A stretch of 64,000 bases of DNA from Bacteroidales bacterium (GTDB taxonomy: Bacteria > Bacteroidota > Bacteroidia > Bacteroidales > UBA932), in the NCBI GenBank assembly GCA_015060405.1, contig SUYN01000007.1, positions 25,447-89,446 of the forward strand, in the 5' to 3' direction. The translations under genes were made by a program, and so were the position numbers. How positions within the stretch are numbered: position 1 is the stretch's first letter; each line of letters opens with the position of its first letter. Below, in pieces: positions 3,272 to 41,717 of the stretch. The notes under the pieces were generated by a model that had not been told where the DNA came from, ran no database searches, and saw nothing but the letters and a program-made list of their open reading frames with translations.

Positions 3272-4087
3272 ATGAATGAAAGAAACCCGCAGATCCTCGA
3301 TCTTGAAAAGATAATACGTGAAAAAGCCGGCAGAAAGGCGAAATACATACCCCAGTTCCTCATAAACTGGTTCACGCGTTTTGCCCATCAGGATGAGATA
3401 AACGCCTTTCTCAAGGAAGGATATGTGGGGGTAGAGTTCTGCGAGAAATGCGTGGAGTACCTCGGCGTGAATGTCGAGATCGAAGGACTGGAGAACCTTC
3501 CTGACGACGGAAGGAAATACACCTTCGTATCGAACCACCCTCTCGGAGCGATCGACGGAGTCACACTCGGAAAGGTCATCGGCAGGAAGTATGACGGAAA
3601 GATCAAGTACCTCATGAACGACCTCGTGATGTACCTGAACGGCATGGCTCCCATGGGAATACCTATCAACAAGCTTGGCGGCCAGGCCAGGAATCTCCCT
3701 AAGCTCATGAACGAGGTCTATGCATCAGACAACCAGATGATCATATTCCCTGCGGGACTGTGTTCGAGAAAGATTGACGGAAAGATCCAGGACATCGAGT
3801 GGGGCAAGTCGTTTGTGACAAAGAGCAGACAGAGCGGGAGGGACATCGTACCTATCCATTTCGAGGGCCGCAACTCGGACAGGTTCTACAACGTAGCCAC
3901 ATGGTGCAAGCGCCTGGGAATCAAATTCAACTTTGCAATGCTCCTCTTGCCGGACGAGATGATCCGCAGCAAGGGCAACACCTATAAGGTAAAGATCGGG
4001 AAACCTATACCGATCTCGTCTCTTGACCGTTCGAGACAGGATATCGAATGGGCTCAGGAGATAAGGAAGACAGTGTATGAACTTTAA
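3272..4087 (+). CDS. PlsC-family acyltransferase, GlsA-like (glycine-lipid O-acyltransferase)
   Basis: Predicted membrane-associated O-acyltransferase of the lysophosphatidate acyltransferase (PlsC) fold, 271 aa. The catalytic HX4D motif is in SNHPLGAIDG (about residues 88-97), and an acceptor-site motif is at IIFPAGLCSRK. In Bacteroides the O-acyltransferase GlsA is encoded beside the N-acyltransferase GlsB. The next gene here has the GlsB/OlsB fold, so glycine or related aminolipid synthesis is the best inference. The 3' end overlaps or abuts the GlsB-like gene. A phosphatidate-forming role is possible but less likely given this partner. Confidence 0.8.
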   Translation: MNERNPQILDLEKIIREKAGRKAKYIPQFLINWFTRFAHQDEINAFLKEGYVGVEFCEKCVEYLGVNVEIEGLENLPDDGRKYTFVSNHPLGAIDGVTLGKVIGRKYDGKIKYLMNDLVMYLNGMAPMGIPINKLGGQARNLPKLMNEVYASDNQMIIFPAGLCSRKIDGKIQDIEWGKSFVTKSRQSGRDIVPIHFEGRNSDRFYNVATWCKRLGIKFNFAMLLLPDEMIRSKGNTYKVKIGKPIPISSLDRSRQDIEWAQEIRKTVYEL

Positions 4088-5204
4088 CCTGAAACTTATG
4101 GAACCTATCATCAGCCCAATTGATGTCAGCATCATAAAATCGGAGCTGACGCCGGCAAAAAAGCTGAGAGACACCAACAAGGGCAACAACGAGATCTATG
4201 TAGTCACACACCATGACTCACCGAACGTCATGCTGGAGATCGGACGACTCCGCGAGGTATCCTTCAGGGATTCGGGAGGCGGCAGCGGCCTGGAAGCCGA
4301 CATCGACGAGTTCGACACCATGGAGAATCCGTACAGACAGCTGATCGTCTGGGACCCGGATCACGAAAAGATCCTCGGAGGCTACAGATACATCTTCGGC
4401 AACGACATCAAGCTCGACGACAAAGGCCAGCCTCTCCTGGCGACGGCACATATGTTCCACTTCTCGGAACAGTTCATAAAGCAGTACCTGCCGCACACAA
4501 TAGAGTTGGGCAGGAGCTTCGTCGTTCCGGAATACCAGAGCCGTCAGGCCGGAGTCAAGGCCCTCTTCGCACTCGACAACCTCTGGGACGGGCTGTGCGC
4601 CCTTGCCATAGAGAAACCTGACATCAAGTACTTCTTCGGAAAGATGACCATGTACCCGGACTACAACCGTGAGGCAAGAGACCTCATCCAGCACTTCCTC
4701 TTCAAGCATTTCAAGGACGAGGAGGGGCTCGTAAGGCCAGTGGAGCCGTTGAAGATAGAGACTGACGAGGCCTACATGGACAGTCTCCTCACAGAGGAGA
4801 ACTTCAAGGAAGACTACAAGCTCCTGAACACGGAGGTCCGTAAAAGAGGAGTGAACATTCCGCCTCTGGTCAATGCCTACATGAGCCTCTCCCCTACGAT
4901 GAAGATGTTCGGAGGAGGAATCAACCATGAGTTCAGTGATGCCGAAGAGACATGCATCCTCATTGCATACGACGAGATACACCAGGAGAAGCTGGAGCGG
5001 CACGCTGATTCCTTCATACAGGAGAAGCTGGCAAAGATAAAGATGAGGTTTCCGAAGTTTGTCGCGAACATGGGAGACGGGTTGAAGGACCTGCTGACCA
5101 GGAGAAGGGAGTCAAGACAGAGAAAGGCTGAAATGAAGGCAAGGAAGAAAGACGGGAAATCCGTCAGCAGAAAGGCACGGAAGAATAAGAAAAACCAACA
5201 ATAA
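4077..5204 (+). CDS. GNAT/OlsB-like N-acyltransferase, GlsB-like
   Basis: Predicted N-acyltransferase, the first step of glycine-lipid (or ornithine-type lipid) synthesis, in the OlsB/'hemolysin' branch of the GNAT fold. Visible signatures are REVSFRDSGGGSG and the cofactor-side ELGRSFVVPEYQSR. The last 35 residues are very Lys/Arg-rich, which could aid membrane or acyl-ACP contact. A second start at ATG 4098 (MEPIISP) would remove the 11-nt overlap with the upstream gene and is equally plausible. The pairing with the PlsC-type gene matches Bacteroides glsB/glsA. glpA starts 11 nt after its stop. Confidence 0.8.
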   Translation: MNFNLKLMEPIISPIDVSIIKSELTPAKKLRDTNKGNNEIYVVTHHDSPNVMLEIGRLREVSFRDSGGGSGLEADIDEFDTMENPYRQLIVWDPDHEKILGGYRYIFGNDIKLDDKGQPLLATAHMFHFSEQFIKQYLPHTIELGRSFVVPEYQSRQAGVKALFALDNLWDGLCALAIEKPDIKYFFGKMTMYPDYNREARDLIQHFLFKHFKDEEGLVRPVEPLKIETDEAYMDSLLTEENFKEDYKLLNTEVRKRGVNIPPLVNAYMSLSPTMKMFGGGINHEFSDAEETCILIAYDEIHQEKLERHADSFIQEKLAKIKMRFPKFVANMGDGLKDLLTRRRESRQRKAEMKARKKDGKSVSRKARKNKKNQQ

Positions 5205-15111: not shown

Positions 15112-15444
15112 ATGTATAGTGAGGATTACGATGGAGCAAATGCTCAGGAGCGTTCAGGTGAGGACATCTATTCAAAACCTGTAAGAGCTGGAAAGCGTAC
15201 ATACTTCTTTGACGTCAAGGCCACGAAAGGCAACGACTACTACCTGACGATCACTGAAAGCAAGCGCAAGGTAGACAACAACGGCCACTACGCCTATGAC
15301 AAACACAAGATCTTTCTCTACAAGGAGGACTTTGAGAAATTCGCGGAAGGCCTCGAGGAAGTGATCAAGTACATCAAGACCAATTGTCTGAAAGGCAACG
15401 AGTCGAAAGACAACTTTACAGACGTGAACTTTGAAGAATTATAA
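15112..15444 (+). CDS. DUF3276 (PUR-domain) protein
   Basis: Small conserved Bacteroidota protein (110 aa) of the PUR-alpha-like fold, thought to bind single-stranded nucleic acid. The core is KRTYFFDVKATKGNDYYLTITESK followed by the KIFLYKEDFEKF segment. It is transcribed from a TAACTTTG box at 15076-15083, divergent from nusB, and has its own terminator. Confidence 0.9.
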   Translation: MYSEDYDGANAQERSGEDIYSKPVRAGKRTYFFDVKATKGNDYYLTITESKRKVDNNGHYAYDKHKIFLYKEDFEKFAEGLEEVIKYIKTNCLKGNESKDNFTDVNFEEL

Positions 15445-15491: not shown

Positions 15492-17498
15492 ATGAACAGT
15501 TACGGATTCATTCGTACAGCAGCCGCTGTACCTTCAGTCAGGATTGCAGACACGACATTCAACACCAGTGAGATCTGCCGTCTTATCGCAGAAGCTTCTG
15601 ACAAAGAAGTTTCACTTGCAGTATTCCCCGAACTTTCGCTCACAGGAAGTTCGTGCGGCGACCTTTTCCTTCAGGACCTTCTTGTGAAGGGGGCAGAAGA
15701 AGGGGTGAAGAAGATTGCGGACTTCAGCCGCGGAAAGTCTGTCACTACAGTCATCGGAGCCCCTGTTCCGTATAGAGGACGTCTTTACAGCTGCGCCATA
15801 GTGGTCAGGAACGGAAACATCAAGGGAATAGTGCCCAAGACATACCTTACGGCAGAAGAAGGAAGATGGTTCGCCTCCGGAGCCGATTTCCTGTCATCGG
15901 AAGTAAGAAATGACGGCACTTATCTGGACAACGGAAAGGACTGCGTGCGCGAAGGCTTCTGCGGAGAGATAAGATATGCCGGACAGAAATCCAACATATC
16001 CCCAGACATGCTTTTCGGGATCGGTCACTGCACCTTTGCCGTCGAACTGGGGAACGACATGTGGGCACCCGTACCTCCGTCTTCATTCCATGCCGCCCAG
16101 GGAGCGCAGGTGATAGTGAACCTGTCGGCAGACAGGGAGATTCTGATGAGGGACACCTACAGAAAGGACCTGCTCAGGCAACATTCCGCAAGGAACATCT
16201 GCGGCTATGTCTACGCATCTGCTGGATTCGGCGAATCCACCCAGGACAATATATATGCAGGCGCCGCATCGGTCTGGGAGAACGGTCAGATGCTTGCGGA
16301 AAGCGAAAGATACAGCATGGAATCATCGCTCACGGTTGCAGACATCGACATACAGAAGATAGAAGTCCTCAGGCGGAGAAATCCTTTGAGAATCATATCT
16401 CCGGCCGGCACGGATGCATCGACTTATTACAGGAATTATGAAAGAAGGAACATAGGAGACCCTTGCTGCACGGACTTCGAAAGCCGTCTGTTCAGAGCCA
16501 TAGAGCCGCACCCTTTCGCACCGGCCGAAGGCCTGCCCGAAAGATGCCGCGAGATTCTTTCCATCCAGGTGGCAGCCCTGATGACCAGACTCAGGCACAT
16601 CGGCTGCAGGACTGCCGTGTTAGGCATCTCCGGAGGTCTGGACAGTACTCTGGCGCTGCTGGTTGCCGTCCTCGCCACTGACAGGCTCGGATGGTCAAGA
16701 GACCGCATAGTCGCAGTGACCATGCCTGGCTTCGGCACCACGTCCAGGACAAAGAACAACGCATGGGCCCTTATGGAAGCCCTGAGCGTGACGTGCAGGG
16801 AAATCTCCATCGTCCCTGCGTGCGAGCAGCATTTCAAGGACATCTCCCATGACTCTGCCCTTCACGATGCGACCTACGAGAATTCCCAGGCACGCGAAAG
16901 GACACAGATCCTCATGGACATAGCCAACCAGACAAACGGAATAGTCATCGGTACCGGAGACCTTTCCGAGCTGGCACTCGGCTGGGCGACCTACAACGGA
17001 GACCACATGTCCATGTACGGGGTAAACGGCGGCATCCCCAAGACATTGGTACGCAGCCTCGTGAAATGGGCGGCAGAAAACAGGTTCGGCATCACTTCAG
17101 AAGATCCGGAGGGCCGCAGCGTCAAGGATATCCTTCTTGACATCGTGGACACCCCTATCAGTCCGGAACTTCTTCCTGCAAATGAACAAGGCGAGATACA
17201 GCAGGTAACCGAAGACCTTGTGGGGCCATACGAACTTCACGATTTCTTCATATACAATTTCGTAAAGTCCGGCTATAATCCCGAGAAGATATACTTCCTT
17301 GCACGCAAGGCCTTCGACTACGACGACCAGACCATCCTGAAATGGCTGAAGACCTTCATCAGAAGGTTCTTCAACCAGCAGTTCAAGCGTTCGTGCATGC
17401 CTGACGGGCCGAGGGTAGGTTCTGTGGGTCTTTCCCCTCGCGGAGGCTACATCATGCCGTCAGACGCATGGAGCACATTATTTTCAGAAGACTTGTAA
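15492..17498 (+). CDS. nadE: NAD+ synthetase with nitrilase-like domain lacking the catalytic cysteine
   Basis: Last step of NAD+ synthesis (deamido-NAD+ to NAD+). The two-domain 668-aa form has an N-terminal nitrilase-like glutaminase (about 1-290) and a C-terminal PP-loop synthetase (ISGGLDSTLALL, about residue 378). In the glutaminase, Glu47 (VFPELSLTG) and Lys116 (IVPKTYL) of the triad are present, but the cysteine expected in the 'EICEDLW' position is Gly187 (VELGNDMW, codon GGG at 16050-16052). Glutamine hydrolysis should therefore fail, and free ammonia is the likely nitrogen donor. The synthetase half looks intact. Confidence 0.93.
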   Translation: MNSYGFIRTAAAVPSVRIADTTFNTSEICRLIAEASDKEVSLAVFPELSLTGSSCGDLFLQDLLVKGAEEGVKKIADFSRGKSVTTVIGAPVPYRGRLYSCAIVVRNGNIKGIVPKTYLTAEEGRWFASGADFLSSEVRNDGTYLDNGKDCVREGFCGEIRYAGQKSNISPDMLFGIGHCTFAVELGNDMWAPVPPSSFHAAQGAQVIVNLSADREILMRDTYRKDLLRQHSARNICGYVYASAGFGESTQDNIYAGAASVWENGQMLAESERYSMESSLTVADIDIQKIEVLRRRNPLRIISPAGTDASTYYRNYERRNIGDPCCTDFESRLFRAIEPHPFAPAEGLPERCREILSIQVAALMTRLRHIGCRTAVLGISGGLDSTLALLVAVLATDRLGWSRDRIVAVTMPGFGTTSRTKNNAWALMEALSVTCREISIVPACEQHFKDISHDSALHDATYENSQARERTQILMDIANQTNGIVIGTGDLSELALGWATYNGDHMSMYGVNGGIPKTLVRSLVKWAAENRFGITSEDPEGRSVKDILLDIVDTPISPELLPANEQGEIQQVTEDLVGPYELHDFFIYNFVKSGYNPEKIYFLARKAFDYDDQTILKWLKTFIRRFFNQQFKRSCMPDGPRVGSVGLSPRGGYIMPSDAWSTLFSEDL

Positions 17499-17510
17499 AG
17501 AAACGCATAC

Positions 17511-18347
17511 ATGAGAAGATCCATACTTGCCATAATGACATTTCTCCTCGGGATGGCGGCAGCAGCGCAGAACCGGCTGGAGAGTCTCGAGACAGTCTAC
17601 AAAGACAGGAACGTCACATTCAGAAAGATTGACAGTCACACATGGATGGGCTCAGGAAAGGTCATGTCGTCCGAGACCATATATTTGATTGAAGGCAAGA
17701 AGAAGGCCCTGCTGATAGATGCTGGGACAGACATGCCAGGGCTGGACAGGATAGTTTCGGGAATAACGAGAAAGCCCGTCACCTTAGTGCTGACCCACGT
17801 GCACCCAGACCATGCAGGAGCAGTCGGATGCTTCGATGAAGTCTGGATCAACCCGGCTGACAGCATCAATATTCCTGACTTCATGGCAGACTATAAAGGC
17901 ACCGTAAGGTATCTGGAGAACGGCCAGCTGTTCGATCTCGGAGGAAGAGTGCTGGAGACATATTTCACACCGGGACACACTCCGGGCTCAACAACCTTCC
18001 TGGAGGTGGGCACTGACAAGGGCTACAGCGGAGATGCTTTCGGCAACGGCAACCTCCTTGTGTTCTGCGACTTCCAGACACTCATCCGGACTTGCAGAGA
18101 TTCATATTCCTACTTCAGCAGCAAGGGATATACGAAATTCTACTGCGGACATTTTTCCGGATCCAACTTCGAGACCATGGACAGGATAAGACTCATCCAG
18201 ACCCTGGCTGAAGAGGCCCTTGCCGGAAAAATCGAAGGTGAGCCTACAGACGGATTCGGCAACATCAACAAAGTCATCGTCAGAGACAACTTCAGACTGA
18301 ATTACAACGACCTCATGCTCGAGGAGGAAAAGTCCTCCTCGAGGTAA
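17511..18347 (+). CDS. Exported metallo-beta-lactamase-fold hydrolase
   Basis: Predicted zinc hydrolase of the MBL superfamily, 278 aa, with an N-terminal signal peptide ending in AAAAQ. The metal motif is LTHVHPDHAGAVG (HxHxDH), followed by TPGHTPGSTTF, the SGDAFG aspartate and a late histidine (YCGHFSG). The substrate is unknown. It starts 12 nt after nadE. The last codons form an 11-bp hairpin (18318-18343) with no T-run, so I do not call it a terminator. Confidence 0.85.
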   Translation: MRRSILAIMTFLLGMAAAAQNRLESLETVYKDRNVTFRKIDSHTWMGSGKVMSSETIYLIEGKKKALLIDAGTDMPGLDRIVSGITRKPVTLVLTHVHPDHAGAVGCFDEVWINPADSINIPDFMADYKGTVRYLENGQLFDLGGRVLETYFTPGHTPGSTTFLEVGTDKGYSGDAFGNGNLLVFCDFQTLIRTCRDSYSYFSSKGYTKFYCGHFSGSNFETMDRIRLIQTLAEEALAGKIEGEPTDGFGNINKVIVRDNFRLNYNDLMLEEEKSSSR

Positions 18348-29232: not shown

Positions 29233-30903
29233 TTAGAACTTGAAGCTGTCCTTGAGGGCAGTTGTCTTGTTGAACACATAGTGGTCAGGAGTTGTGTCAG
29301 GATCCTTGAAGAAGTAGCCGACACGCTCGAACTGAACTGCTATTCCTGAATTATCTTCAAGCAGAGCCGGTTCCGCGTAACCCTTTCCAATCACGAGGGA
29401 CTCAGGGTTAAGGTAGCTCTTGTAGTCTTCACCTTCAGGGATCTGCCCCATCTGTGCCTCGGTGAAGAGCTTGTCGTAGAGTCTGAGCTCAACTTCCTTG
29501 GCATGCTCTGTAGAAACCCAATGGATGGTGCCCTTTACAGAGCGCCACTCGCCTGCTCCTGGCTTTGAAGTCGGATCGTATGTACACTTGATTTCAACGA
29601 TGTTGCCCTCTGCATCCTTCACCACTTCCTGGCACTTGACGATGTAGGTATATTTCAGACGGACCTCCCCATCCGGCTTGAGGCGGAAGTACTTCTTAGG
29701 AGGCTCCTCCATGAAGTCGTTTCTCTCAATATACACCTCGCCTGTGAAAGGAACCTTGCGTGACGATCCTTCCGGATCAGCAGGATTAAGAGGGGCGTCG
29801 AACCACTCAACCTTGCCTGGCTCCCAGTTGGTGATGGTCAGCTTCACCGGATCCTGTACAACCATATAGCGGTTTGAACGCTCGTTCAGGTCCTGACGGA
29901 CACACCACTCCATGAGCTGGAGGTCGATCAGCTGCTCACGTTTCGCGACTCCGACCTTCTCGGCAAACATCCTTATCGACTCAGGAGTGTAACCGCGGCG
30001 GCGGATACCGCATATGGTCGGCATGCGAGGGTCATCCCAGCCGCTCACGAAGTTGTTCTTCACAAGCTCAAGAAGCTTGCGCTTCGACATCACAGTATAT
30101 GTCAGGTTGAGTCTCGCAAACTCGTACTGATGAGAAGGGAAGATGTCCAGCTTCTCAATGAACCAGTCATAGAGAGGACGGTGCACGTCAAACTCGAGAG
30201 TACAGATCGAGTGAGTGATGTTTTCGATGGAGTCTGACTGACCGTGGGCATAGTCGTACATAGGATAGATGCACCATTTGTCTCCTGTACGATGGTGGTG
30301 TGCATGGATGATGCGGTAGAGAAGAGGGTCACGGAAAAGCATGTTAGGATGAGCCATGTCTATCTTGGCACGAAGCACCTTCTCACCTTCCGCATACTTT
30401 CCGTCACGCATCTCACGGAAGAGCCGGAGATTCTCCTCAACGCTCCTGTTGCGGTACGGGCTCTCTGTACCGGGCACCTGGACAGTTCCACGGCCTGCGC
30501 GTATCTCTTCCTGTGTCTGGTCATCCACATAGGCCAGGCCCTTCTTTATAAGCTCTTCAGCCCACTCATAGAGCTGGTCGAAATAGTCAGATGCGTATCT
30601 TTCGTTCTCCCACTGGAAGCCGAGCCACTTGATGTCTTCCTTGATTGAATCAACATACTCGGTGTCTTCCTTTACAGGGTTGGTATCGTCGAAACGGAGG
30701 TTGGTCTTGCCGCCGTATTTCTTCGCAAGGCCGAAATTGATGCAGATGCTCTTCGCATGGCCGATGTGAAGGTAGCCGTTAGGCTCAGGCGGGAAACGTG
30801 TCATCACTGATTCACACTTGCCGCTTGCGAGATCAGACTCGATGATCTCCTCCAAAAAGTTGAGATTCCTTGTCTCAACAACTTCCTTGTTTACCTCTTC
30901 CAT
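29233..30903 (-). CDS. glnS: Glutaminyl-tRNA synthetase
   Basis: Class I synthetase charging tRNA-Gln (556 aa). The catalytic Rossmann domain has the HIGH motif (PPEPNGYLHIGHAKS, about residue 45) and the KMSKS-like VMSKRKLLELV. The C-terminal beta-barrel anticodon domain is complete. Its length and the NLRFDDTNP signature fit GlnS rather than GltX. A TATATTTG -7 box (30936-30943, minus) lies 33 nt upstream of the start. Confidence 0.96.
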   Translation of the reverse strand: MEEVNKEVVETRNLNFLEEIIESDLASGKCESVMTRFPPEPNGYLHIGHAKSICINFGLAKKYGGKTNLRFDDTNPVKEDTEYVDSIKEDIKWLGFQWENERYASDYFDQLYEWAEELIKKGLAYVDDQTQEEIRAGRGTVQVPGTESPYRNRSVEENLRLFREMRDGKYAEGEKVLRAKIDMAHPNMLFRDPLLYRIIHAHHHRTGDKWCIYPMYDYAHGQSDSIENITHSICTLEFDVHRPLYDWFIEKLDIFPSHQYEFARLNLTYTVMSKRKLLELVKNNFVSGWDDPRMPTICGIRRRGYTPESIRMFAEKVGVAKREQLIDLQLMEWCVRQDLNERSNRYMVVQDPVKLTITNWEPGKVEWFDAPLNPADPEGSSRKVPFTGEVYIERNDFMEEPPKKYFRLKPDGEVRLKYTYIVKCQEVVKDAEGNIVEIKCTYDPTSKPGAGEWRSVKGTIHWVSTEHAKEVELRLYDKLFTEAQMGQIPEGEDYKSYLNPESLVIGKGYAEPALLEDNSGIAVQFERVGYFFKDPDTTPDHYVFNKTTALKDSFKF

Positions 30904-34188: not shown

Positions 34189-35457
34189 TTACCAATCAAC
34201 TTTACGACGGGACAGCGGCATCGTCATGCAGCGAGGTCCGCCACCTCCGCGTGGAAGCTCGGATCCGTCTATCGTCAGGGCACATGGCCTGTCACCATAT
34301 ACGATGGAATCGGCCTTTCCTGAAATGAAATCGGCGGACTTCACGATTTCGAATCCTTCCTTATCCAGTTCCTCCAGTGTGTGGATGTTTCTTGCATATG
34401 TCAGCACCTTTCCCGGTGCGAAGGAGAAGAAGTTGGCGCCGCTGTGCCACTGTTCCCTCTCCTGGTCCCAGTCATGACTTCCGCCGCATATTATCGGCTT
34501 GAGGTCCATGCCCAGAGTCTTCAAGGCCTTCAGAAGTCCGGAAACCGGCCTTATGCCGGAGACGTTGCCCTCTTCTATGGTTATATGGACGGTCTGATAC
34601 TGGTTGGCCTGCATGATCAGAGGCTTGAACACCATGCACTTGTCCCGGTCCAGAAGGGTGAAGACCATATCGAGATGGATGAATGATTCAGGCTCGGACG
34701 GAAGCTGCTGCACAAGGATATGATAGGTTCCGTGAGGATTGCCCCTGCGGAACTGCTCTATCATGAAATCGATTCCCTGCGGAGTCGTCCTGACACCGTT
34801 TCCTATGATCAGGATGTCCTCACGCGCGATTATTATGTCGCCCCCTTCCATTATGACAGGCGAAGATTCCGGCAGAAGATTCGGATCGGTCACGCTGCAG
34901 CTGAAGGCCCCACTGTGACGGTATATGGCATCCATTATCAGCGACTCCCGCATTCTGACCTTGTTCGCCATCCTGCAGACCAGAGCCTGATTGCCGATCG
35001 TGACTGCCGCATCCCTTGTAAAATAGAAATTGTACAGAGGATAAAGTGCATAATATTCATTCCTGAGATAGGAAGTAAGCGTGTCCACCCTTGCAGGCAG
35101 GCCCTCTATAAGGACTCTTGCCAGTTCGGCGGAATCCAGTCCCATAAGTGTGTCAAGATACGGCATGACGTCTTCAGCGACGCATATCCTGTGTATAAGG
35201 TCCGCCCTTGGCTTCCACTGTTCGAGCACCCTGACAAGGAGATCACTGACCTCATATACCTTGGCAAGCTTGGATAGCGTGCCGTAGAGCTGCCCGTACT
35301 CGTGACGGGCGATCGAAAGATTCAGGATGTCACTGTACAAGGCTCTCTGGACATTCCTCGGAGTCATGTTCTCGACTTCTGCGCCCGGCCTGTGAAGAAG
35401 GACGGCATCAAGTCTGCCTATTTCTGACTGTATGTCAATCTTTAACGGATCAGCCAT
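34189..35457 (-). CDS. arcA: Arginine deiminase
   Basis: Hydrolyses arginine to citrulline and ammonia (422 aa). Guanidino-modifying-enzyme residues are present: the FTRD and MEGGDI segments, the histidine of FIHLDMVFT, and the nucleophile cysteine in RGGGGPRCMTMPLSR at the C terminus. No ornithine carbamoyltransferase or carbamate kinase gene is next to it, so the rest of the pathway must be elsewhere. Ammonia from here could serve an ammonia-dependent NadE, but that link is inference. Confidence 0.93.
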   Translation of the reverse strand: MADPLKIDIQSEIGRLDAVLLHRPGAEVENMTPRNVQRALYSDILNLSIARHEYGQLYGTLSKLAKVYEVSDLLVRVLEQWKPRADLIHRICVAEDVMPYLDTLMGLDSAELARVLIEGLPARVDTLTSYLRNEYYALYPLYNFYFTRDAAVTIGNQALVCRMANKVRMRESLIMDAIYRHSGAFSCSVTDPNLLPESSPVIMEGGDIIIAREDILIIGNGVRTTPQGIDFMIEQFRRGNPHGTYHILVQQLPSEPESFIHLDMVFTLLDRDKCMVFKPLIMQANQYQTVHITIEEGNVSGIRPVSGLLKALKTLGMDLKPIICGGSHDWDQEREQWHSGANFFSFAPGKVLTYARNIHTLEELDKEGFEIVKSADFISGKADSIVYGDRPCALTIDGSELPRGGGGPRCMTMPLSRRKVDW

Positions 35458-40244: not shown

Positions 40245-40880
40245 ATGAGAAAATTTGACACCTGTTTCTTCGAGCGTTATGCTCAGATCTGCCTTGAGAC
40301 ACTTCTTGGGGATCATTACTCGGATCTGGTCAACGAAGACAGGCCCGACCTGCAGAAGCCGGACAGAAGCCTGGGAATCGAAGTGACAAGGGCAATGGAG
40401 CCGGACAAGAAAGTCGCCCAGGCCTTGCTGAAGGAGATGGCAGGTGTGCCTGTAGAAGAAAAGGACAGGGAGGAAGTAAGGCAGATCATCAGCAGCGGTT
40501 ACGGATATGGTCTTCAGGACGGGCGCTATGTCGGTTCGCTCGAATACGACTACTGGATGCTCGCCCAGCCACTGAGAAGGATAATCGAGAGCAAGATCAG
40601 CAAGGTTGGCGCCGGATTCTATGGCGATTTCAAGGAATACGGACTATATATATTCTGTAAGGACAACCTCAGCGAAGAGGAGGTCATCCTTACCATGGAG
40701 TATGCCAGCGACCTTCAGAGACATCTGGACATAAGATACTCCACACTCTATCTCTCCCTTATCGACAGACTGTATGTCTGCGACCTGACCAATGTAGACA
40801 GGCTCTTACACAAAACAACATGCACATCCCACGAGATTACCCGAGAGATGTGCAAGAAATTCTTTATCAATTCATTATAG
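40245..40880 (+). CDS. Unknown protein with PD-(D/E)XK-like segment
   Basis: 211 aa from ATG 40245 (MRKFDTCFFERYAQ); the tracked start adds 27 low-complexity residues. Near the N terminus, EDRPDLQKPDRSLGIEVTRAM resembles a nuclease-type D-x(10)-E-x-T/K active-site strand pair. The rest is helical. I do not recognise the family; a nuclease role is a guess. A 150-nt A-rich leader without clear promoter precedes it, and its stop overlaps the convergent pyrF stop by 6 nt. Confidence 0.65.
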   Translation: MRKFDTCFFERYAQICLETLLGDHYSDLVNEDRPDLQKPDRSLGIEVTRAMEPDKKVAQALLKEMAGVPVEEKDREEVRQIISSGYGYGLQDGRYVGSLEYDYWMLAQPLRRIIESKISKVGAGFYGDFKEYGLYIFCKDNLSEEEVILTMEYASDLQRHLDIRYSTLYLSLIDRLYVCDLTNVDRLLHKTTCTSHEITREMCKKFFINSL

Positions 40881-41717
40881 ATTTGCCGTCTGCGCTGCGA
40901 CCTGGCCTGCAACCTTTGCAAAATCCTCTGAGCCGTCAGCAAAAAGGATTCCTCTTGAGGAGTTGATGAGAAGACCGCCGTGGTCATTGGCACCATGTGC
41001 TATAACCTCTTCAGCCGAACCTCCCTGGGCACCCACACCCGGGACAAGGAAGAAGTTGTCCGGGCAGAAGCTGCGGAGCTCTTCGAGCTTGTCAGCCTTG
41101 GTAGCACCTACGACGAACATCATGTTGTCCGGAGTCGAGATTTCCATCATCTCTTCCATGACAGCCCTGTAGAGAGGCTTGCCATCCTTCTGGGCCATCT
41201 GGAACTGGAAGGCCGAGGCATTGGATGTGAGGGCAAGCACGATAGCCCATTTGTCCTTGTACTCCAGGAAAGGAGTCACGCTGTCAGCACCCATATATGG
41301 AGCTATTGTCACAGCATCAAAATCCATTTCCTCAAAGAATGCCTTTGCATACATCCTGGCTGTGTTGCCGATGTCTCCCCTCTTCGCATCTGCGATAAGG
41401 AAGATCTCCGGATACTTGGTCCTGATGTAGTCTACCGTAGCATCAAGCGCACGCATGCCGTCGATTCCATAACATTCATAAAAGGCGAGATTAGGCTTGT
41501 AAGCGACACAGTGCTCTGCAGTCGCATCGACTATAGCCTTGTTGAACTCAACGATCGAACGGGCCTTCCCTTTGAAGAGTTCTCCCTTTATGGCAAGCTC
41601 ACCACTCGAGGCAAGAGCCTTGATATGTTCAGGCATCTTGTTGAAATCCACATCCAGACCTACGCAGAGCATGCTTTTCTTCGCCTGTATCTGCTGATAT
41701 AATTCTTCTCTGTTCAT
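40875..41717 (-). CDS. pyrF: Orotidine-5'-phosphate decarboxylase (type 2)
   Basis: Decarboxylates OMP to UMP, the last step of de novo pyrimidine synthesis. The catalytic stretch is in LIADAKRGDIGNTA, with the type-2 features LCVGLDVD and VPGVGAQGG. The 280-aa length is normal for this type. It lies 12 nt downstream of the peptidase gene, likely in one operon. Confidence 0.95.
   Translation of the reverse strand: MNREELYQQIQAKKSMLCVGLDVDFNKMPEHIKALASSGELAIKGELFKGKARSIVEFNKAIVDATAEHCVAYKPNLAFYECYGIDGMRALDATVDYIRTKYPEIFLIADAKRGDIGNTARMYAKAFFEEMDFDAVTIAPYMGADSVTPFLEYKDKWAIVLALTSNASAFQFQMAQKDGKPLYRAVMEEMMEISTPDNMMFVVGATKADKLEELRSFCPDNFFLVPGVGAQGGSAEEVIAHGANDHGGLLINSSRGILFADGSEDFAKVAGQVAAQTANL

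Follow-up and report, generated by a model that had tools for sequence, protein, structure and literature searches.

NadE of the window and its catalytic residues

The window, which is the whole stretch of DNA analysed here (64,000 nucleotides), is part of contig C4 of a metagenome-assembled genome (MAG) of 2.43 Mb that is 94% complete and consists of 30 contigs. From its named close relatives, which are Bacteroidales MAGs including several Candidatus Cryptobacteroides, we infer that the host genus is of the Cryptobacteroides type. The genes and residues at the locus are as follows.

15112..15444, + strand: DUF3276 gene, upstream of nadE; a conserved neighbour in Cys-bearing and Cys-less relatives
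15492..17498, + strand: nadE, two-domain NAD(+) synthetase, 668 aa (NF002730 equivalog; alignment with M. tuberculosis NadE)
15492..16391, + strand: nitrilase-type glutaminase (G) domain, residues ~1–300, predicted to be catalytically dead (Pfam, alignment, AlphaFold model)
15630..15632, + strand: Glu47 (M. tuberculosis Glu52, general base of the triad), kept and clade-invariant (alignment)
15648..15650, + strand: Ser53 (M. tuberculosis Tyr58, tunnel constriction residue), Tyr lost (alignment; role, PMC6946656)
15837..15839, + strand: Lys116 (M. tuberculosis Lys121, triad), kept and clade-invariant (alignment)
15843..15869, + strand: YLTAEEGRW, remnant of the YRE loop with 4 residues deleted (alignment; loop role, PMC6946656)
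16050..16052, + strand: Gly187 (GGG) at the position of the nucleophile Cys176 (alignment)
16629..16649, + strand: SGGLDST PP-loop of the synthetase domain, intact (sequence; invariant columns 380–385)
17511..18347, + strand: metallo-beta-lactamase-fold hydrolase gene, downstream of nadE

The 668-residue polypeptide, whose ORF begins with ATG, is a two-domain NadE. It matched the NCBIfam equivalog NF002730 (NAD(+) synthase) over residues 2–668 with 777 bits against a cut-off of 473, as well as the Pfam families CN_hydrolase (44 bits) and NAD_synthase (100 bits). In an end-to-end phmmer alignment with NadE of M. tuberculosis (3dla; E 7e-119), the nitrilase nucleophile Cys176 corresponded to Gly187 of the query, where VEICEDMF is replaced by VELGNDMW. 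The other two triad residues were kept, as Glu47 (GAA) and Lys116 (AAG). The Glu-Lys-Cys catalytic triad of glutamine-dependent NadE is thus incomplete in the query, while the fused nitrilase-fold N-terminal domain of ~300 residues is present and the SGGxDS PP-loop of the synthetase is intact at S380–T386. These results bear out the original prediction from this sequence, according to which the nucleophile had been lost while Glu47, Lys116 and the PP-loop remained.

In tbNadE the YRE loop contacts glutamine and makes up constriction 1, the main bottleneck on the way from the glutamine tunnel to the ammonia tunnel (PMC6946656). In the query this loop (M. tuberculosis Tyr127–Glu132) is 4 residues shorter and replaced, reading YLTAEEGRW for YLPNYNEFYExRW, and it is also deleted and replaced in most members of the clade of Gly-bearing relatives described below (Gly clade). 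Moreover, Tyr58, Glu177 and Ser203 of the M. tuberculosis enzyme are replaced by Ser53, Asn188 and Asp214, respectively.

The AlphaFold model of NadE, a monomer model, had a pLDDT of 82.6 overall and mostly >90 in the glutaminase domain. Its best PDB matches were M. tuberculosis NadE chains, C176A mutants included, with TM scores of 0.81–0.84. The end-to-end homology and the model agree with the earlier claim of a full-length, folded domain, and the glutaminase domain of the query is predicted to be folded but catalytically dead. Nitrilase-family enzymes are usually inactivated by removing the nucleophile Cys. In tbNadE, bound glutamine was trapped by means of the C176A variant (PMC6946656). 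The invariance of Glu47 and Lys116 throughout the Gly clade might be taken to mean that glutamine is still hydrolysed in this domain, by a different mechanism or through a different nucleophile. However, the alignment of 225 rows placed no other Cys, and no Ser, at the nucleophile position, and the elements that hold glutamine (YRE loop, Ser203 and Tyr58) are lost or variable across the clade, so that continued hydrolysis is extremely unlikely.

Fixation and phylogeny of the Cys loss

The nucleophile column of the 225 aligned NadE rows contained Cys in 190, Gly in 30 (query included), Asp in 1, Gln in 1 and a gap in 3. Gly was found in all 26 sequences of one clade and is thus fixed among these relatives of the query; its codons were GGA (12), GGC (9), GGT (4) and GGG (1). 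The 26 sequences were monophyletic, with a support of 0.91 in the synthetase-domain tree and 0.59 in the glutaminase-domain tree. By parsimony, the nucleophile position changed 8 times on the former tree and 6 times on the latter. Separate Cys-to-Gly losses were identified in L215, L201 and L030 and, outside the genus, in L080, and the nucleophile was replaced by Gln in L064 and by Asp in L026. A full-length YRE loop is still found in two members of the Gly clade, L194 and L226, which suggests that Cys was lost first and the YRE loop later.

The source MAG is in 30 contigs, and an assembly or sequencing error in this one genome might be suspected. Such an error is contradicted by 26 distinct sequences, drawn from numerous assemblies, that have Gly encoded by different codons, and its probability is negligible.

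Genes around nadE

The metallo-beta-lactamase-fold gene downstream of nadE was also found in two close Cys-less relatives, but not at this position in the Cys-bearing relatives examined. The surroundings of nadE are otherwise largely the same in Cys-bearing relatives, and therefore indicate nothing special on ammonia supply. It had been suggested that ammonia might come from serine or arginine deamination encoded by sdaA and arcA in the window. This suggestion of a local supply is unsupported and was rejected, given that the neighbours of nadE are largely common to Cys-bearing relatives. The candidate for arcA is an ORF of the arginine-deiminase family (Pfam ADI; 34189–35457, − strand) that scored far below the arcA equivalog cut-off, and sdaA was not seen among the ~30 window ORFs scanned, which are a part of all ORFs of the window. 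The window also encodes a glutaminyl-tRNA synthetase (29233–30903, − strand), and glutamine is still needed for translation. A gene for the glycine lipid acyltransferase GlsB lies beside that for a second acyltransferase (4077–5204 and 3272–4087, + strand).

Second NadE, separate glutaminase and ammonia uptake

A PF02540 search of the query's own genome identified one NadE, and its two weaker matches read as GuaA and an MnmA-type protein; a second nadE was thus not found in this genome. Taken with the full-length but apparently dead glutaminase domain and the intact synthetase domain, this result favours the original prediction that the enzyme would use ammonia. No NAPRTase/NadV-family match was found in the same genome. 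AmtB was not found there either, which is consistent with, but not proof of, high ambient ammonia.

If a separate glutaminase docked on NadE and supplied ammonia in trans, glutamine would remain the effective donor. Two-subunit NAD synthetases of this kind are known from Thermus thermophilus (PMC3376133). However, no stand-alone nitrilase glutaminase was found in the query's own genome, where the only other CN_hydrolase reads as Lnt-type, and the PF00117 scan of this genome returned only the GuaA stub described below, whereas 14 of 14 control genomes matched. Given also that GuaA and CarA of the clade have lost their glutaminases, supply in trans is very unlikely.

Glutaminase sites of other amidotransferases

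Other amidotransferases were compared between 24 Gly-clade genomes and 20 Cys-bearing congeners, with joined E. coli proteins as one query and with catalytic residues read from DNA. The genome-wide statements given here rest on targeted searches, several of them with joined E. coli sequences, and all absences except that of pyrG come from MAGs that are 52–95% complete and were searched with E. coli queries.

GuaA of the query's own genome (G000:C22:152-1459; L002, L413) is 435 aa long and has an intact LSGGVDSS motif, but neither GICYG nor HPE. In all 21 Gly-clade genes examined, the GATase domain of GuaA was cut to approximately its first 85 residues, with the Cys, His and Glu gone, whereas GuaA was intact in 16 of 16 cases examined from the Cys-bearing set. 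Stand-alone GuaA synthetase domains without GATase were also found in G023 C17 (L274), G070, G128 and other genomes, sometimes beside full-length GuaA. CarA was found in 11 Gly-clade genomes (L263/L311, L307, L309, L310, L312 and L347-L352). In all of them Cys was replaced by Gly (GxGxGY) and His by Asn or Ala, whereas CarA was intact in 9 of 9 cases from the Cys-bearing set. One of these 11 genomes, G415, has a second CarA copy with the Cys, in which HPE is changed to QPD. In G067, an independent case of Cys-to-Gly in NadE, HPE of CarA (L283) is changed to LPQ and GuaA is intact. Neither CarA nor CarB was found in the query's own genome.

AsnB was found in none of the 24 Gly-clade genomes vs 10 of the 20 Cys-bearing congeners, and GltB in 0 of 6 vs 4 of 5. 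Glutamate dehydrogenase and NagB were present in 11 of 11 genomes searched, AsnA of the ammonia type in some, and type III glutamine synthetase is kept, as judged by a weak match. The catalytic cysteines of PurF and PurL were kept in the 6 Gly-clade genomes examined, and a general loss of all amidotransferases was therefore rejected. GlmS was found in 2 of 7 congeners outside the Gly clade (G016 and G022) and in none of 3 Gly-clade genomes searched. Because GlmS is also missing in most congeners outside the Gly clade, its loss does not seem to be confined to that clade. NagB was present where tested, and glucosamine-6-phosphate may come from reverse NagB activity with ammonia.

NadE, GuaA, CarA and PyrG are all intact in the sister genomes G313, G295, G082 and G135, which therefore places the changes in the glutaminases and PyrG on one stem branch. 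They are one coordinated set of changes that was inherited by the Gly clade, and the related genomes are not independent of one another. The original prediction had noted neither the loss of the YRE loop nor the loss of the GuaA and CarA glutaminases and of PyrG, AsnB and GltB.

Deletion of pyrG

PyrG was found in none of 24 Gly-clade genomes vs 19 of 20 Cys-bearing genomes (Fisher p ~1e-11, a value that ignores genome relatedness and thus overstates the evidence). In Cys-bearing congeners, pyrG is ~10 kb from nadE, between two conserved genes. We take these neighbours, from their sequences, to be a glutamine-cyclotransferase-like gene and a gene for a 259-aa membrane protein. In G269 the two neighbours are adjacent, ~100 bases apart, and the same was found in G206 and, on the same contig just outside the window, in the query's own genome; the loci of the empty site are L411 (G000:C4:20000-25800), L408 and L410. 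An assembly gap was rejected as the cause, given that the conserved neighbours adjoin in all three genomes, and the absence of pyrG thus reflects deletion of the gene. Because the window contains a gene of the OMP-decarboxylase family (40875–41717), de novo pyrimidine synthesis is at least partly present, yet no CTP synthase was found.

Constraint on the glutaminase domain

The mean identities among the 26 Gly-clade sequences were 58% for the glutaminase domain and 78% for the synthetase domain. Of 320 positions in the glutaminase domain, 41 were invariant in the Gly clade vs ~59 when 26 Cys-bearing congeners were drawn at random. The invariant positions include Glu47, Lys116, Gly187 and Asp189. 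The ratio of glutaminase to synthetase rates, from pairwise protein distances, was 2.30 in the Gly clade vs 1.66 in Cys-bearing congeners, and pairwise dN/dS of the glutaminase domain was ~0.14 in the clade, with dS near saturation. Because the rate ratio is raised and dN/dS is ~0.14, we read the dead domain as relaxed yet still constrained, and under purifying selection.

The nitrilase fold might instead be a passenger that has been eroding neutrally toward deletion since catalysis was lost, in an enzyme that would still depend on ammonia. The raised rate ratio fits such erosion, as do the proteins of a second lineage of the genus (L362-L365, L367, L369, L382 and L388), which are 520–560 aa long after excision of the central part of the domain (~residues 93–200, the Lys and Cys positions included); intermediates of this lineage still carry Gly. 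Moreover, ~130 of 367 matching genomes of the genus, counted by hand from E-values, gave only weak, single-domain NadE-type matches. However, almost every one of the 26 main-clade sequences has the domain at full length despite its low identity, dN/dS is low, and the four invariant residues named above are retained, with each of the four Gly codons represented at position 187. Neutral erosion is thus somewhat unlikely.

Proposed switch of the amide donor

We propose, with a probability of about 0.86, that the clade as a whole switched its amide donor from glutamine to free ammonia, with a NadE that is ammonia-dependent and carries a dead but folded glutaminase domain. On one stem branch of Cryptobacteroides-type bacteria, NadE, GuaA and CarA had their glutaminase sites destroyed, and PyrG and, by the searches made, AsnB and GltB disappeared. 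PurF, PurL and glutamate dehydrogenase were retained, as was, by its weak match, type III glutamine synthetase. In the proposed scenario the lineage, in a habitat rich in ammonia, would have stopped using glutamine as the amide donor for NadE, GuaA and carbamoyl phosphate synthetase. NadE, which would no longer hydrolyse glutamine, would use the intact synthetase domain to make NAD by amidation of deamido-NAD with free ammonia. The dead domain is probably retained for the octamer and the domain interface. The pattern of residues and genes suggests that free ammonia is the nitrogen donor for NAD, GMP and carbamoyl phosphate synthesis in this lineage; in vivo use of ammonia by these enzymes and plentiful ammonia in the gut are both what we infer.

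It is well established that NadE, GMP synthetase and carbamoyl phosphate synthetase are all able to work with free ammonia if they are prevented from hydrolysing glutamine. Such use was described for NadE (PMC6946656) and carbamoyl phosphate synthetase (PMC4655335). Both tbNadE and human NadE also accept ammonia, and the Km of human NadE for NH3 is tabulated as 42 mM (PMC6946656). Because the ammonia-dependent Km can be high in known enzymes, an adequate supply of ammonia in vivo is an assumption of the proposed switch. Against an ammonia-dependent NadE stands the invariance of Glu47 and Lys116, which pure decay does not predict, and GuaA and CarA still carry remnants of their glutaminases. 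Against a full switch, the use of glutamine clearly persists in PurF, PurL and GlnRS.

A stronger version holds that glutamine has been largely abandoned and that the dead domain of NadE serves as an entrance for ammonium. Gly187, the YRE deletion and the loss of Tyr58 would then remove the tunnel bottleneck, Glu47 and Lys116 would bind or deprotonate ammonium, and the repeated Cys-to-Gly changes (in ~5 lineages of NadE and in CarA) would be adaptations that open the channel. This version is unlikely and put forward as speculation. Opening of the tunnel is one idea for why Cys was repeatedly replaced by Gly. Relief of backbone strain at the turn of the nucleophile is another.

Comparison with known systems

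Arguments on the in vivo donor of NAD synthetases, glutamine or ammonia, have drawn mostly on kinetics and the distribution of genes, and the mosaic of one- and two-domain NadE was proposed to result from gene transfer and loss, with no further fusion or fission (PMC3376133). Within one genus, our results identified intermediates that range from intact NadE through Cys-to-Gly, loop deletion and domain excision to single-domain NadE. Silencing of two unrelated glutaminases and deletion of CTP synthase on the same branch make this clade a natural experiment in switching the nitrogen donor, and the proposed switch yields clear predictions on the need of uncultured gut bacteria for ammonia and cytidine. 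No earlier report of such a glutaminase-loss clade was found in a literature search whose coverage left out most subscription journals.

Similar to M. tuberculosis NadE, a long octameric enzyme of NF002730, the query has the same domain order, predicted fold, PP-loop and synthetase motifs, with ~37% identity in the structural match. Different from it, the query has Gly as the nucleophile residue, a deleted YRE loop and replaced Tyr58, Glu177 and Ser203, and is predicted not to use glutamine. Its predicted donor, free ammonia, is that of single-domain NadE of the E. coli/B. subtilis type; unlike these enzymes, however, it keeps a nitrilase domain of ~300 residues, and its synthetase domain is that of the two-domain family. 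The glutaminases of CarA and GuaA, which were lost on the same branch as that of NadE, have class I triad folds unrelated to the NadE nitrilase. For a dead glutaminase domain that is kept, the closest precedent is vertebrate CPS1. Human CPS1 has Ser294 in place of Cys and uses external ammonia as the donor, and retains a glutaminase-like domain with its Cys replaced (PMC4655335), similar to the query with its intact synthetase motifs. CPS1, however, belongs to the class I GATase family and is a single animal enzyme, whereas a set of bacterial enzymes is affected here.
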